A stretch of DNA of 64,000 bases. Origin: Maribacter zhoushanensis. GTDB lineage: Bacteria > Bacteroidota > Bacteroidia > Flavobacteriales > Flavobacteriaceae. The DNA lies in the NCBI RefSeq assembly GCF_029350975.1, contig NZ_JARKMR010000001.1:744001-808000 (forward strand). The letters are read 5' to 3'. Shown piece by piece: positions 57,919 to 64,000 of this stretch. The notes below the pieces were generated by a model. That model saw only the letters and a list, made by a program, of their open reading frames with translations, searched no databases and was not told the origin of the DNA. Numbering within the stretch: position 1 is the first letter of the stretch; each line of letters opens with the position of its first letter. The translations under genes were made by a program, and so were the position numbers.

Positions 57919-59802
57919 ATGAAGTTTTTTATGAAAAAAAATGTTTTAATTATTGCTTCAGCTTTGCTGTTAAATGCGTGTGGGGCAGGTAAGGCGTTGT
58001 TGTCGGTTGAAAACAGTCCTGTGGTAACCTCCATAGATTTGGTAAAGGTTATTGATGATAAAGTTCAGGTTGGTATTGATCCTGGTGCATTTACTGTGTC
58101 AACTGTTATTTTTAGAATACCTAAGACTGTACCGGGAACGTATAGTTCTGATAATTACGGCAAGTATATAGAGGATTTTAAAGCTCTTGATTATAAGGGT
58201 AATGTTTTACCTAGTACTAAGTTAGATGATAACTCTTGGAGTATTTCAGGTGCTGTTCAATTAGATAAAGTTCAATATTGGGTAAATGACACCTATGATA
58301 CTGAGGACGAAGTAGAAGATGCCGTTTTTTCTCCGGCGGGAACAAACATTGCTGAGGGTAGTAATTTTATGCTTAATCTTCACGGATTTGTAGGGTATTT
58401 TGATGGATTCAAAGAAGTGCCTTATTCAATCCTAATCAATAAGCCTGCGGATTTAGTTGCTACGACGACACTTGCTCATGAGGCAGATAGAAAACCAGAT
58501 CCTGTTTGGGATGCTTTTACAGCTAGTAGGTATTTTGAAGTAATCGATAATCCTATAATGTATGCAAAGCCAAATACAGAATCTTTTGAGATAAATGGTA
58601 TTACCGTAACCTTAAGCCTTTTTTCGCCTAATAATGTTTACAAAGCGTCTGACTTAAAAGATAGAATGGTGGCTATGATGGGTGCGCAAAAGAAATTTTT
58701 AGGTGATGTTGATAGTACAAAAGAGTATAATATTTTATTATATATGTCTGATAATACGGTGCCAGATGCTCATGGATTTGGAGCGTTAGAGCATCATACC
58801 TCAACTGTAGTTGTATTGCCAGAAACTATGGATATTGGCCGTTTGGAGCAAGCTATGGTTGATGTGGTTTCTCATGAGTTTTTTCATATAGTTACTCCGC
58901 TGTCCGTTCACTCTAAAGAGATTCAATATTTCGATTTTAACGACCCTAAGATGTCAGAACATTTGTGGATGTATGAGGGCACTACAGAATACTTCGCTAA
59001 TTTATTTCAGATTCAGCAAGGACTAATTTCTGAAGAGGATTTTTACGAGCGAATGTTGACTAAAATCACTAATTCAAAATTTTATGATGATAGTATGTCT
59101 TTTGCGGTGATGAGTAAAAATATACTAGAACAGCCTTACGAACCTAATTATGCCAATGTATATGAGAAGGGAGCTTTAATAAATATGTGTCTTGATATAA
59201 TATTGAGAGAGAAGAGTGGTGGAGAGAAAAGCATGCTTTGGTTGATGAAAGAATTGTCTAAAAAATATGGTACAGATGCTCCTTTTGAAGATGAGGCTCT
59301 ATTTGGTGAAATTGTTTCTATGACTTATCCGGAAGTCGATACTTTCTTTAAGGAGCATGTGATTGGTACTACGCCTATAGATTATAATAAGTATTTTGCT
59401 AAAGTTGGTTTAGCTACCAAAAATGTTGAGGAAGCTACCGGTTACTTTTTTGATGGTCAGGTTCCATATATGGATGTAGATGTGCAAAACGACAGTGTTG
59501 TATTTATTCGTAAGAATATTCAGTTAAATTCTTTTTTTAATAATTTAAAGTTAAAGGGTGGCGATATTTTTAGGGTAATTAATGGTCAAGACATCAACTT
59601 GGAAACACTGCGTCCAATTATTGGTGAAAGCTTTGGCTGGACACCTGAAAATGTAGTGAGTATGACCGTTGAAAGAGATGGGGAAATGATTTCTGTAGAA
59701 GGACCTGTTGGGCAACCTGTTAAAATGGTTAGAAAGATAGCTGCTTTAGAAGCTGTGTCAGATGAAACCGTTAAGCTTCGAAATGCTTGGTTGAAGAATT
59801 AA
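57919..59802 (+). CDS. M61 family peptidase lipoprotein (glycyl aminopeptidase-like)
   Basis: A 627-residue exported lipoprotein from the ATG at 57919 (MKFFMKKNVLIIASALLLNAC; lipobox LLLNAC). Family M61 features: N-terminal beta domain, the zinc motif HEFFH at 319-323, the third ligand Glu353 in MYEGTTEYF, and a C-terminal PDZ-like domain (about 520-600, LKGGDIFRVINGQDI). M61 enzymes are aminopeptidases with preference for Gly or Ala. It has its own promoter and terminator and lies in opposite orientation between tsf and pyrH. Confidence 0.9.
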   Translation: MKFFMKKNVLIIASALLLNACGAGKALLSVENSPVVTSIDLVKVIDDKVQVGIDPGAFTVSTVIFRIPKTVPGTYSSDNYGKYIEDFKALDYKGNVLPSTKLDDNSWSISGAVQLDKVQYWVNDTYDTEDEVEDAVFSPAGTNIAEGSNFMLNLHGFVGYFDGFKEVPYSILINKPADLVATTTLAHEADRKPDPVWDAFTASRYFEVIDNPIMYAKPNTESFEINGITVTLSLFSPNNVYKASDLKDRMVAMMGAQKKFLGDVDSTKEYNILLYMSDNTVPDAHGFGALEHHTSTVVVLPETMDIGRLEQAMVDVVSHEFFHIVTPLSVHSKEIQYFDFNDPKMSEHLWMYEGTTEYFANLFQIQQGLISEEDFYERMLTKITNSKFYDDSMSFAVMSKNILEQPYEPNYANVYEKGALINMCLDIILREKSGGEKSMLWLMKELSKKYGTDAPFEDEALFGEIVSMTYPEVDTFFKEHVIGTTPIDYNKYFAKVGLATKNVEEATGYFFDGQVPYMDVDVQNDSVVFIRKNIQLNSFFNNLKLKGGDIFRVINGQDINLETLRPIIGESFGWTPENVVSMTVERDGEMISVEGPVGQPVKMVRKIAALEAVSDETVKLRNAWLKN

Positions 59803-59827
59803 AGAATATCTAAAGTTTTGAAAATAA

Positions 59828-59864
59828 AAAAACCGTCTACTTTTTACAGTAAGACGGTTTTTTA
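59828..59864. terminator. Bidirectional intrinsic terminator
   Basis: A 12-bp perfect stem (AAAAAACCGTCT with AGACGGTTTTTT) with a 13-nt loop; A and T runs on both sides let it end both the M61 gene (+) and tsf (-). Confidence 0.85.
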
Positions 59865-59884
59865 TTGAGTTAGTTGTATTGTAA

Positions 59885-60850
59885 TTAACCTACGGTTACA
59901 CGTTTAAAACCTAAAACAGCAACATCACCATGAGACTCAACATATTTAGCTACGTTGATTTTCTCATCTTTAATGAAGTTTTGGTCTAACAAACATTGTT
60001 CTTGATCCAAAGTAGTGTTATCAGAAACAAATCTTTCCATCTTTCCTGGAAGAATTTTATCCCAAATTTTCTCTGGCTTACCTTCAGCTTTTAATTGTGC
60101 TTTAGCATCTTCTTCTGCTTGAGCCATAACTTCAGGAGTCAATTGCGACATTGAAATATACTGAGGTACATTTTTAAGTGTTTTACCTAAACGACCTAGT
60201 TCTTCATTGTCTTTTTCAATAACAGCTATTCTAGCTTCTGTTTCGGCAGCTACAAATGTAGGGTCGAAATCTTTATAAGATAATGTAGTCGCTCCCATTG
60301 AAGCAACCTGCATAGAAACGTCTTTAGCCAATACATCAGCAGTATCAACTTTAGCTGAAAGACCTACTAAAGCAGCAATCTTATTAATGTGAACGTAAGA
60401 ACCAACATATGGTGCTTCTAATTTTTCAAAAGCAGTGATTTCTAATTTCTCACCAATAACACCAGTTTGCTCAACTAATTTGTCAGCAACTGTCATACCT
60501 CCAAAATCAGCAGCTAAAAGTTCCTCTTTAGAGTTACAGTTAAGTGCTATTTCAGCTAACTGGTCAGCAAGGGCAAGAAAGTTCTCATTTTTACCAACGA
60601 AGTCAGTTTCACAACCAAGTACTATGGCAACACCAACAGTTTGGTCAGAATTCAACTTAGCAATTGCTGCACCTTCTGAAGATTCTCTGTCTGCTCTTTT
60701 TGCTGCTACTTTTTGCCCTTTTTTACGAAGCACTTCGATTGCTTTGTCAAAATCACCTTCGGCCTCTACCAAAGCGTTTTTACAATCCATCATTCCAGCG
60801 CCAGTCGCTTTTCTTAATTTATTTACTTCTGCGGCGGTAATTTTTGCCAT
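59885..60850 (-). CDS. tsf: Translation elongation factor Ts
   Basis: A 321-residue EF-Ts, the guanine nucleotide exchange factor for EF-Tu. The N-terminal UBA-like domain (ITAAEVNKLRKATGAGMMDCKNALVEAEGDFDKAIEVLRKKG) and the CETDFVGKN motif (TDFV contacts EF-Tu) are intact. It is longer than the 283-residue E. coli protein, as usual in Bacteroidota. It lies 70 bases after rpsB on the same strand, the classical rpsB-tsf operon. Confidence 0.97.
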   Translation of the reverse strand: MAKITAAEVNKLRKATGAGMMDCKNALVEAEGDFDKAIEVLRKKGQKVAAKRADRESSEGAAIAKLNSDQTVGVAIVLGCETDFVGKNENFLALADQLAEIALNCNSKEELLAADFGGMTVADKLVEQTGVIGEKLEITAFEKLEAPYVGSYVHINKIAALVGLSAKVDTADVLAKDVSMQVASMGATTLSYKDFDPTFVAAETEARIAVIEKDNEELGRLGKTLKNVPQYISMSQLTPEVMAQAEEDAKAQLKAEGKPEKIWDKILPGKMERFVSDNTTLDQEQCLLDQNFIKDEKINVAKYVESHGDVAVLGFKRVTVG

Positions 60851-60920
60851 TTTATTTTCTTTTAGGATACCCGTTTTAATGGGTTGTTCTTAGATTTATT
60901 TATATCAAAAATAGAATAAC

Positions 60921-62039
60921 TTATTCTACACCACCTTTTGTGTTGTCTTGCCATTCTTTAAGTTCGTCCCACTTACCTTCAGCAGCCATTTTAGCTTGCT
61001 TTGGCCAAGATGTTGGATCTAAATGAGCCATTCTAGAACTAGCTGCTGTTAAGATTTCTTTGATCTTTTCAGCTTCTCCTTTAGAAAGGTCAGCAAATGT
61101 TGCGATACCTGCAGCAACTAATGCTTCGGCAGCTTTTGGTCCAATACCTTCAACTTTCGTTAAATCGTCAGCTTTTGCATCTTTAGCAACTGCTTCTTTA
61201 GTAGCCTCAACATTTACTTCAACGTCTGGTACGTTAGCAACCATTGGTGCTGGTTTAGTATCAACTTTAGCTGGAGTTGGAGCTGGTTTTTCAGCTGCTA
61301 CTTTCTTCTTAGGAGCTTTATCTTTTTTCTCAGCTGCATCACCTTTTTCTGCCTTACGTTCTGCAAGACCTTCAGCAACTGCATTAGTAACTTCTGTCAT
61401 AATGATGTCAATTGACTTTGATGCATCATCATTAGAAGGGATAAGGTAATCTACATCTCTAGGGTCACAGTTGGTATCAACCATTGCGAAAATAGGAATG
61501 TTCAATTTTTGAGCTTCTTTTACTGCAATGTGTTCTCTCATTGTATCAACGATGAACAAAGCACCTGGTAAACGAGTCATTTCAGAAATAGAGCCTAAGT
61601 TCTTTTCTAATTTTGCACGTAAACGGTCAACTTGCAATCTTTCTTTTTTAGATAATGTAAGGAAAGTACCGTCTTTCTTCATACGATCAATAGAAGCCAT
61701 TTTCTTAACAGCTTTACGGATAGTAACGAAGTTGGTTAACATACCACCTGGCCATCTTTCTGTGATGTAAGGCATGTTTACTGCTGCTGCTTTTTCAGCA
61801 ACGATATCTTTTGCTTGTTTTTTGGTAGCTACGAAAAGTATTTTTCTACCTGATGCTGCAATCTTGCTTAGAGCCTCATTGGTCTCGTCTAATTTTGCAA
61901 CTGTTTTGTAAAGGTTGATTACGTGAATACCATTACGCTCCATGTAGATGTAAGGAGCCATGTTTGGATTCCACTTTCTTGTTAGGTGACCAAAATGTAC
62001 ACCTGCTTCTAATAATTGTTTTACTTCGACTCTCGCCAT
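60921..62039 (-). CDS. rpsB: 30S ribosomal protein S2 with C-terminal helix-hairpin-helix extension
   Basis: A 372-residue S2. Residues 1-230 are the normal S2 fold (VKQLLEAGVHFGHLTRKWNPNM, ERWPGGMLTNF, MTRLPGALFIVDT, VDTNCDPRDVDYLIPSNDDA). A Lys/Ala/Pro-rich linker (about 230-288) leads to an extra domain (about 289-372) with a helix-hairpin-helix core LTKVEGIGPKAAEALVAAGI and an EASSRMAHLDPTSW-like tail. Typical S2 is about 240-260 residues, so about 120 residues are added. The preceding 62040-62239 is an untranslated stretch with weak hairpins and no clear promoter. Heads rpsB-tsf. Confidence 0.95.
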   Translation of the reverse strand: MARVEVKQLLEAGVHFGHLTRKWNPNMAPYIYMERNGIHVINLYKTVAKLDETNEALSKIAASGRKILFVATKKQAKDIVAEKAAAVNMPYITERWPGGMLTNFVTIRKAVKKMASIDRMKKDGTFLTLSKKERLQVDRLRAKLEKNLGSISEMTRLPGALFIVDTMREHIAVKEAQKLNIPIFAMVDTNCDPRDVDYLIPSNDDASKSIDIIMTEVTNAVAEGLAERKAEKGDAAEKKDKAPKKKVAAEKPAPTPAKVDTKPAPMVANVPDVEVNVEATKEAVAKDAKADDLTKVEGIGPKAAEALVAAGIATFADLSKGEAEKIKEILTAASSRMAHLDPTSWPKQAKMAAEGKWDELKEWQDNTKGGVE

Positions 62040-62239
62040 TTTAATTTAGTTTACGTTCTTATGAATTAGCAATGATAAAGTGGTATTTCGATTTAGAACC
62101 GAAAAGCCTTCACCATTTAGATGCTAAACTAATCTTACCTTTAATCTTAAAGTAATTAAAGGATTTTTAATTGTCCTAAAAGGACTTTCAATGAACTTGT
62201 TAATAATCTGGATTTTCCAGTATGATAAAATATAAAAAT

Positions 62240-62260
62240 AGGCACCCAAAAAGGGTGCCT
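62240..62260 (-). terminator. Intrinsic terminator after rpsI
   Basis: An 8-bp stem AGGCACCC/GGGTGCCT with AAAAA loop; on the minus strand it is followed by ATTTTTATATTTT. It separates rplM-rpsI from rpsB-tsf, about 20 bases after the rpsI stop. Confidence 0.8.
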
Positions 62261-62280
62261 GGTAATCTTGTAATTCCGAA

Positions 62281-62667
62281 TTAACGTTTCGAGAATTGGA
62301 ATTTTTTACGTGCTTTCTTCTGACCGAATTTCTTACGTTCAACCATTCTTGGATCTCTAGTTAATAGACCTTCTGGTTTAAGTACTGTTCTGTTTTCGGC
62401 ATCAATCTCACACATTGCTCTAGATAAAGCAAGACGAATAGCTTCTGCTTGACCAGTGATACCACCACCGTAAACATTTACTTTTACATCATAAGTATCT
62501 AAGCTTTCAGTTAATGTGAAAGGTTGTTTTACTTTGTATTGAAGTGTTGCAGTTGGGAAGTATACACTTAAATCTTTGTTGTTAATAGTGATGTCACCAT
62601 TACCATCAGAAAGATATACTCTCGCTACAGCGGTCTTTCTACGACCAATTTTATGAATTACTTCCAT
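62281..62667 (-). CDS. rpsI: 30S ribosomal protein S9
   Basis: A 128-residue S9 with the family motifs GRRKTAVARVYL near the N-terminus, the VNVYGGGITGQAEAIRLALSRAM centre, and the basic C-terminal tail RMVERKKFGQKKARKKFQFSKR whose last residues contact P-site tRNA. It follows rplM with a one-base gap, forming the universally conserved L13-S9 pair. A frame at 62124-62342 in another phase is a shadow. Confidence 0.98.
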   Translation of the reverse strand: MEVIHKIGRRKTAVARVYLSDGNGDITINNKDLSVYFPTATLQYKVKQPFTLTESLDTYDVKVNVYGGGITGQAEAIRLALSRAMCEIDAENRTVLKPEGLLTRDPRMVERKKFGQKKARKKFQFSKR

Positions 62668-62668
62668 C

Positions 62669-63124
62669 TTATTTAATGTCTTTTAAATTAACAACAGTTG
62701 GCTTTTGAGCTTCCTGACCGTGCTCTGTACCTGCGTAAACTTTAAGGTTTCTAAAAAGTTCAGCTCCTAATCTGTTCTTAGGTAACATTCCTTTTATTGC
62801 TTTTTCAAGAATACCTTCTGGATTTTTATCCAATAATTGTTTTACACTAGTAGTACGTTGACCACCTGGGTAGCCAGTGTATCTCATATATGATTTATCA
62901 GACCACTTGTTTCCTGTAAGAACAATTTTCTCTGCGTTGATAATAACAACATTATCACCACAATCAACATGAGGGGTGAAACTTGGCTTGTGCTTTCCTC
63001 TTAACAAATAGGCGACTTTTGAAGCCATGCGTCCTAATGTTTCTCCTTCGGCATCTACCAATAACCACTCTTTGTTTACAGTTGTTCTGTTGGCCGAAAC
63101 GGTCTTATAACTTAATGTATCCAC
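62669..63124 (-). CDS. rplM: 50S ribosomal protein L13
   Basis: A 151-residue L13 with the expected segments [60 protein letters not shown] and [10 protein letters not shown]. First gene of rplM-rpsI. A near-ideal Bacteroidota promoter (63173-63202) lies 49 bases upstream. It is an early-assembling ribosomal protein of the large subunit. Confidence 0.98.
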
Positions 63125-63172
63125 TACTGCTATTTTTAACTATTATTTTAATCAATCCCTAGAAAGGGGCTG

Positions 63173-63202
63173 CAAATCTACAATTATTAACTTGAATTGC
63201 AA
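63173..63202 (-). promoter_or_regulatory. rplM-rpsI promoter (TTG-N19-TAGATTTG)
   Basis: On the minus strand: -33 TTG at 63200-63202, a 19-base spacer, and -7 TAGATTTG at 63173-63180, followed by GCAGCCCC. This matches the Bacteroidota consensus TTG-N19-TAnnTTTG exactly and is the clearest promoter in the window. Confidence 0.8.
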
Positions 63203-63369
63203 ATACTTGTTTCTTATTTTTTTACATTTTTTAAATAAATGTAGAATCTAACTACTTTGTCTTTATGGAGATACTGTTAAACTTGTTGGTTTTATTACTA
63301 TTTCTGTAACAATTACAATTCTTTTGTCTCTCTTCAATATCACATCAATCAACCAAAGAACGCACAATT

Positions 63370-64000
63370 ATGAATAAACGTATATTCCAAAGTATCTTAT
63401 TTCTGCTATTTATATCGACAGTAGTAGCTCAAAAAGATACTGTAAAGGTACAAAGGGAATATGTTGCCAAACAACTTCCGGTAGGAGAAGAAATTACAAT
63501 TGACGGGCAATTGTCTGATAAAGCTTGGGATACTGTTTCTTGGGATGGAGATTTTACCGTTTTTGACCCTAATAATGGAGAGGCGCCAAGTCAAGCCACA
63601 AAATTTAAAATTACCTATGACGCTAAATTTCTTTATGTTGGTATTCGCTGTTATGATAGTGTTCCTTCTAAAATAGAAAAAAGACTTGCCAGACGTGATA
63701 ATTTTTCTGGTGATTGGATCGAGATTAATATAGATAGTTACAACGATAAAAGAACCGGTTTTTCCTTTAATATTTCTGCCGCAGGGGTAAAGGGCGATGA
63801 GTTCATATCCCAAAATGGAGATTTTTGGGATGCCAGCTGGAACCCTATTTGGTACACAGCTTCCCATATAGATAGTGAAGGGTGGACTGCCGAAATGAAA
63901 ATACCGTTCAGTCAGCTAAAATTTGGAGAACAGAAAGAACAGATTTGGGGGCTTCAGTTAAATAGAAGGTTTTTTAGGGCGGAAGAACGCTCTTTATGGC
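63370..64000 (+). CDS. DUF5916 / CBM9-like secreted protein (partial, 3' end outside the window)
   Basis: The first 210 codons of a + strand gene running off the window end. Signal peptide about 1-20 (ending VVAQ), then a carbohydrate-binding family 9-like beta-sandwich (EEITIDGQLSDKAWDTVSWDGDF; ITYDAKFLYVGIRCYDS; DWIEINIDSYNDKRTGFSFNISAAG) and KIPFSQLKF. In Bacteroidota this N-terminal domain precedes a DUF5916 barrel-like domain in proteins of about 750-850 residues; the rest cannot be seen. Role unknown, probably outer membrane. An antisense frame at 63406-63867 is a shadow. The 63203-63369 stretch before it holds no other feature I can support. Confidence 0.85.
   Translation, partial: MNKRIFQSILFLLFISTVVAQKDTVKVQREYVAKQLPVGEEITIDGQLSDKAWDTVSWDGDFTVFDPNNGEAPSQATKFKITYDAKFLYVGIRCYDSVPSKIEKRLARRDNFSGDWIEINIDSYNDKRTGFSFNISAAGVKGDEFISQNGDFWDASWNPIWYTASHIDSEGWTAEMKIPFSQLKFGEQKEQIWGLQLNRRFFRAEERSLW

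Follow-up and report, generated by a model that had tools for sequence, protein, structure and literature searches.

Within the window, by which we mean the whole 64,000-nucleotide stretch of Maribacter zhoushanensis DNA analysed here, the gene rpsB fills a minus-strand open reading frame whose boundaries coincide with those of the gene itself (Table 1). It is flanked by the genes for EF-Ts (59885-60850) and S9 (62281-62667), both named by reading the list of open reading frames. Its product is identified as ribosomal protein uS2 by a match to every position of the Pfam model PF00318 (1-216 of 216), the single such match in the genome, and by the S9-S2-EF-Ts gene order; the closest named relatives belong to Maribacter (loci L007 and L019, whose best segment reaches 97%). 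The gap of 241 bases between S9 and S2 (62040-62280) holds no listed open reading frame, and a search of the region 59000-64000 for an RNA leader before rpsB returned no Rfam match at E <= 1.

Behind the S2 fold the protein runs on for some 148 residues, longer than the roughly 120 estimated in a first-pass annotation of this DNA. The reading given there, of a helix-hairpin-helix tail on a flexible-looking linker, was borne out: the Pfam family HHH_5 scores 32.4 bits against a cut-off of 27 (E 1.4e-7), and copies occur on four other proteins of the genome. The match covers 39 of the 57 profile positions, so that a second hairpin is left unmatched. The linker, about 66 residues long in M. zhoushanensis and described in the annotation as Ala/Lys/Pro, is indeed of low complexity; in 45 tagged S2 proteins it spans 40-118 residues, and its make-up (22% K, 21% E, 19% A, 8% P) is therefore not simply basic.

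Table 1. Layout of rpsB and its product, with positions counted along the window.
Feature	Position	Strand	Basis
rpsB, uS2 with C-terminal helix-hairpin-helix module, 372 aa + stop	60921..62039	-	ORF list and Pfam
S2 fold, residues 9-224	61368..62015	-	Pfam PF00318, E 3.2e-90
Low-complexity linker, residues 225-290	61170..61367	-	dN/dS and length variation among relatives; pLDDT
Helix-hairpin-helix module, residues 291-372 (82 residues)	60924..61169	-	Pfam, genome search, AlphaFold2, dN/dS
HHH_5 match with GIGPK hairpin, residues 291-329	61053..61169	-	Pfam
Last two helices with conserved W..QA and W..L..Q, residues 342-368	60936..61016	-	Full-length model (helices) and residue conservation

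An AlphaFold2 model of residues 283-372, built with 34 related S2 tails, predicts a module of five helices that extends to the C-terminus of uS2, with block pLDDT of 90-93 across model residues 11-80. The full-length model is poor even in the S2 core (pLDDT 58.5, pTM 0.39, 18 similar sequences) and thus, with pLDDT below 50 at residues 235-288, adds little on the linker, though the module is well predicted there too. A Foldseek search with the module model turned up nothing at E <= 1e-3, hence no structural twin in the PDB; its alignment with the helix-hairpin-helix of polymerase beta covers 29 residues (0.8 Å, 59% identity, E 5.4). The first 30 residues of the module also match the DNA polymerase beta helix-hairpin-helix by the A2 profile (E 3.7e-4 to 5e-4), a resemblance that makes binding to a nucleic-acid backbone possible. 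A second structural comparison returned polymerase theta (Z 8.7), RadA/Rad51 (7.6, with RadA N-domains at 7.0-7.6) and the C-terminal repeats of NusA (7.2, 65 residues, 2.7 Å to 1wcn), scores of about 7-8 that may reflect merely a common arrangement. Among solved folds, those nearest to the first hairpin and its following helix are the acidic repeats of NusA, the RadA N-domain and the polymerase beta hairpin; the last two helices, with their W..QA and W..L..Q residues, distinguish the module from all three and are its own hallmark. An ad hoc length rule divides 130 modules into 93 of a long type and 37 of a short type, the latter being the form found on most ActC and bS1 proteins.

Searching the genome with the module alone yielded five carriers. 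Besides S2 they are L21 (62% identity to the S2 module), a glycogen-branching-enzyme-like protein here called CBM48-like (51%), a protein with an N-terminal transmembrane stretch, classed as membrane-anchored (48%), and ActC of alternative complex III (38%); because the tail recurs on these four other proteins its presence on uS2 is not a matter of chance. L21 was verified by Pfam, in agreement with the annotation's mention of similar tails on L21 of some Bacteroidota, and ActC by a match to 6btm_C (E 1e-283). For the remaining two, Pfam gave no CBM48 match and no family, respectively; the CBM48-like label is tentative, drawn from a weak resemblance to GlgB (E 7e-5). Through S2 and L21, both ribosomal subunits of M. 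zhoushanensis are tagged.

Across the phylum, a first module profile matched 60 of 296 genomes at E <= 1e-3; a wider profile matched 59 of 396 genomes of the class (a sample overlapping that of the phylum) and 170 of 219 genomes of Flavobacteriaceae, both at E <= 1e-5. Matches weaker than these thresholds lie outside our census of carriers, for which 120 stretches around matches, a part of all matches, were fetched; together with the M. zhoushanensis genome they gave 68 classed genomes. Host classes were assigned by sequence signatures devised for this analysis together with a hydropathy rule, and three bS1 rows (L231, L234, L242) were reassigned by hand from 'other'. In these 68 Bacteroidota genomes the carriers are bS1, uS2, uL16, bL17, bL20, bL21, bL27, ActC, ActD, membrane-anchored proteins and CBM48-like proteins, and a search that the first-pass annotation had recommended, for the tail on other proteins, has accordingly found it on seven ribosomal proteins, on ActC and ActD, and on membrane-anchored coiled coils. 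The copies are recognised by the same profile, are C-terminal and have W..QA and GxGP residues in common; in 123 of 131 proteins the chain stops within ten residues of the last module, and single anchored proteins of three genomes (G064, G158 and G037) hold modules in tandem. A Pfam check of one representative each confirmed L21, L27, S1, L17, L16, L20 and ActD as hosts. The bL20 module was found by the A2 profile and missed there by Pfam at E <= 0.001, and that of uL16 is strongly diverged (tree branch 1.7). Counted by family label, membrane-anchored carriers occur in 12 families, ActC and CBM48-like carriers in four each and ActD in two; among ribosomal hosts bL21 has five labels (f1, f7, f29, f99, f107), bL27 (f5, f57, f80), bL17 (f3, f10, f51) and bS1 (f5, f90, f95) have three each, uS2 has two (f1, f99), and bL20 and uL16 have one label and one genome each.

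Among the fetched matches, ribosomal and anchored modules occur together in 21 of the 68 genomes, ribosomal modules only in 21 (two of which, G513 and G518, have further matches beyond the fetched set), anchored modules only in 23 and neither in three. An obligate pairing of a tagged ribosome with a membrane-anchored module was considered and is not supported, the anchored copy being absent, within the fetched matches, from 21 of the 42 genomes in which a ribosomal protein is tagged. In 16 of the same 42 the whole genome contains a single module match. The partner thus need not be a module on some other protein and, at least in those genomes, must be either something else or the module itself. 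Six genomes have two tagged ribosomal proteins, one per subunit each time: uS2 and bL21 in G000, G182, G404 and G424, and bS1 and bL27 in G064 and G158. A tree of the modules (81 columns, 130 rows) has many open forks and bears coarse statements only, among them that host labels change 29 times along it, as against 71.6 times when shuffled, so that a module, once captured by a host, for the most part remains there. The uS2 label changes twice, in f1 and f99, with each group near L21 modules, a pattern that could also be one gain with losses. Given its occurrence on so many ribosomal proteins, the site of the module on the ribosome is not conserved.

Although S2 is present in all 219 Flavobacteriaceae genomes, the tagged form is a minority: the module lies inside an open frame of 335-440 aa in at least 42 genomes, four of which (G795, G718, G811, G816) were assigned to S2 by frame length alone, and an S2 match stands just upstream of it in the same frame in at least 38. 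The solved chains of S2 (254 aa), L21 (147 aa) and ActC (466 aa), which we take to be those of Flavobacterium johnsoniae, are without the module. The L21 of the solved ribosome (7jil_R, presumably from the same organism) ends in a bare Ala/Lys/Pro linker with the module missing behind it, as if it had been lost or were yet to be gained. Four other Flavobacteriaceae S2 proteins (L050, L051, L053, L083) were read as ending in Rho_N, which replaces the helix-hairpin-helix module behind a similar linker; two of the four C-termini were put to Pfam and matched PF07498 (E 6.1e-11 and 1.7e-12). In the S2 of a Pricia MAG (L045), tblastn spans query residues 1-371, yet the frame stops at 335 aa without the module, possibly through an assembly frameshift.

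For an estimate of selection, the best 80 S2 loci were joined with the S2 of M. zhoushanensis; 45 of these carry the module by a GxGPK rule, and of their 990 pairs the 54 with a core dS of 0.1-1 were taken, saturated or very small regional dS values being dropped. Median dN/dS is 0.032 in the core (54 pairs), 0.068 in the module (50) and 0.182 in the linker (46). The module is under purifying selection, and its lower value relative to the linker indicates that it is conserved as a unit while the linker drifts in sequence and length.

Relatives of the module have been catalogued on other proteins. The module, by itself or together with its linker, is matched by NCBIfam models of L21, S2, NuoE and the phasin PhaH. 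The models of L21 with a C-terminal fusion domain (PRK12278; NF008915 and NF008916) match the S2 module alone at their ends (E 5.2e-8 and 3.6e-7), although they describe L21, not S2, and the S2 module falls far under their whole-protein cut-off; their taxa are, we presume, alphaproteobacteria. For S2, too, NCBIfam already includes a model with a related tail, PRK12311 (NF008966, 334 positions), in which model positions 238-328 match the uS2 tail alone (E 1.7e-5); with 273.2 bits against a cut-off of 526, the S2 of M. zhoushanensis lies outside that family. Plasmid matches aside, what we say of alphaproteobacterial S2 and L21 draws on NCBIfam names. The 'sunset domain' variants of S2 (NF051451) and L17 (NF051448) are a parallel in which NCBIfam lists another added domain for different ribosomal proteins; matches to them here fall on the ribosomal part, and our S2 matches model positions 1-297 of 382 in NF051451 and remains outside it (254.5 bits against 710). 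In solved structures, the short-type module is the C-terminal domain of protein-O in the RC-LH1 complex of Dinoroseobacter shibae (8yy9, E 3.7e-14) and of a 41 kDa subunit of complex I (9wqv, E 2.8e-12). Passages of PMC12079452 describe the protein-O domain as invisible in the map, as also ending NuoE and other proteins, and as obscure in function; protein-O is a membrane protein, and section 2.3 of that paper draws no link to ribosomes. Short-type modules also occur on Rhizobial and other alphaproteobacterial plasmids (8 records), and one gene of a Rhizobium lusitanum plasmid (L255, 610-1749) encodes a membrane protein with two of them that is unannotated. A phage origin was sought among 50,697 phage records, which neither module type matches; the best viral structure match, to a Salinibacter phage protein, is weak (E 0.86).

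We propose that the tail serves as a portable docking module at the C-terminus, tethering large assemblies to a partner that could be a protein, a further copy of the module or a nucleic-acid backbone, a reading to which we give an even chance. The module would hang by a flexible leash from a large assembly facing the cytosol, be it either subunit of the ribosome, alternative complex III or a membrane-anchored coiled coil, and would hold that assembly to its partner. Binding would most likely be by protein contact, as in the HhH_5 repeats of NusA, which act in this way, and function would be independent of the point of attachment on the ribosome; as the mode of binding, we place protein contact slightly ahead of nucleic-acid contact. 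Found on several ribosomal and membrane proteins alike, the domain looks like a portable tag and not a special mRNA arm of S2. Docking is favoured by the spread over many hosts, the terminal position, purifying selection, the stable five-helix fold and the tandem copies in anchored proteins, and further by the structural matches to NusA and RadA and by the relatives on protein-O and the complex I subunit; against it, no partner was found, half of the genomes with tagged ribosomes showed no anchored copy among the fetched matches, Foldseek gave no match at E <= 1e-3, and most Flavobacteriaceae S2 proteins have no module. According to a passage of PMC5928083 the termini of ActD are cytoplasmic in Rhodothermus, and the other non-ribosomal copies probably face the cytoplasm as well.

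Judged from its sequence, the hairpin may instead grip the backbone of DNA or RNA and tie the proteins that carry it to the nucleoid, or to RNA wherever it lies and not at the mRNA exit specifically, which we regard as possible if somewhat unlikely. The resemblance to polymerase beta suggests as much, as do the GxGPK motif, retained in 84 of the 93 long-type modules, and the basic charge of the CBM48-like modules (+1 to +6, median +4). The family of the module is, on our assumption, COG3743. A passage of PMC8686332 names COG3743 as a predicted DNA nuclease H3TH domain, a naming in keeping with such a grip. Modules on ribosomal hosts, however, are acidic, with median net charges of -6 on bL27, -4 on bL21, -7 on bL17 and -2 on bS1 (-2 also on membrane-anchored proteins), a value of -14 on uL16 and a range of -6 to +1 in the six S2 copies of the census; in all 28 of the Flavobacteriaceae S2 tails measured the module lies between -2 and -9. 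The lysine, moreover, is found in just 9 of 37 short-type modules, and a hold on nucleic acid would be an odd requirement for ActC or a reaction-centre subunit.

The first-pass annotation had suggested that the tail gives S2 an arm that binds RNA, close to the side where mRNA exits, aiding initiation without Shine-Dalgarno pairing. Both bS1 and uS2 sit near the mRNA exit and both are carriers, and helix-hairpin-helix folds are capable of binding nucleic acid; yet the same module is borne by five large-subunit and several non-ribosomal proteins, the S2 tails are acidic, and S2 is tagged in at least 38-42 of the 219 family genomes, the annotation having itself named absence from most relatives as grounds for abandoning the idea. 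We now consider the arm highly improbable, and as the specific explanation of the tail we reject it for host range, charge and patchiness; compensation for missing Shine-Dalgarno use is likewise unsupported, given the host range, the acidic S2 tails and the untagged majority. With the attachment site on the ribosome not conserved, a function at the mRNA exit is unlikely, and tethering from many surface points fits. Equally improbable, in our view, is that modules of the two subunits bind one another between ribosomes, in polysome packing or storage. In its favour, the 16 genomes with one match leave self-contact as the sole way for modules to meet, and all six two-tag genomes have one tag per subunit. 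The latter is suggestive only: it comes from just three lineages, and by our estimate a random draw of two of the seven proteins would give such a pair in about half of cases. The non-ribosomal carriers, moreover, would be left unexplained. A mobile extension without function, passed on as repetitive linkers recombine, would suit the patchy presence, the many hosts and the 29 host changes on the tree, but it is already weakened by the purifying selection on the module relative to its own linker, sits poorly with residues invariant across hosts, and strikes us as highly unlikely.

Taking the docking module further, Bacteroidota might use an interchangeable module to join ribosomes, respiratory complexes and membrane anchors in one shared network of the cytoplasm, each lineage using a different ribosomal protein, so that the tether matters and the site of attachment does not; this larger picture we offer as speculative and rather unlikely. 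If the tail does act as a tether, bacteria would have in it a means of fixing the position of ribosomes via one small, non-essential tail. Its repeated grafting onto seven ribosomal proteins amounts to a natural experiment in which the module, whatever it does, must work from many points on the ribosome surface. The solved ribosome and alternative complex III of F. johnsoniae, their deposited chains being without the module, do not represent their relatives, and the protein-O domain of a photosynthetic complex, described as obscure, is now linked to ribosomes. Single fusions were already known (L21, S2, NuoE and phasin in NCBIfam, and protein-O of Dinoroseobacter); the breadth across hosts appears to be new, full-text searches, which mostly left subscription papers aside, having given among the results listed no description of one module across seven ribosomal proteins.

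Two further carriers deserve mention. Records of Riemerella anatipestifer called plasmids (L256, 102-105 kb) contain a module-bearing rplU as well as murB and rpmA, and in view of these genes they may be pieces of chromosome. In family f90 (L207, L209, L214) the module is carried by a small basic protein that starts near TRLERKARRNK; its first half, with no Pfam match at 0.001 in the one of three tested and no solved relative, could belong to an unrecognised ribosome-associated protein.
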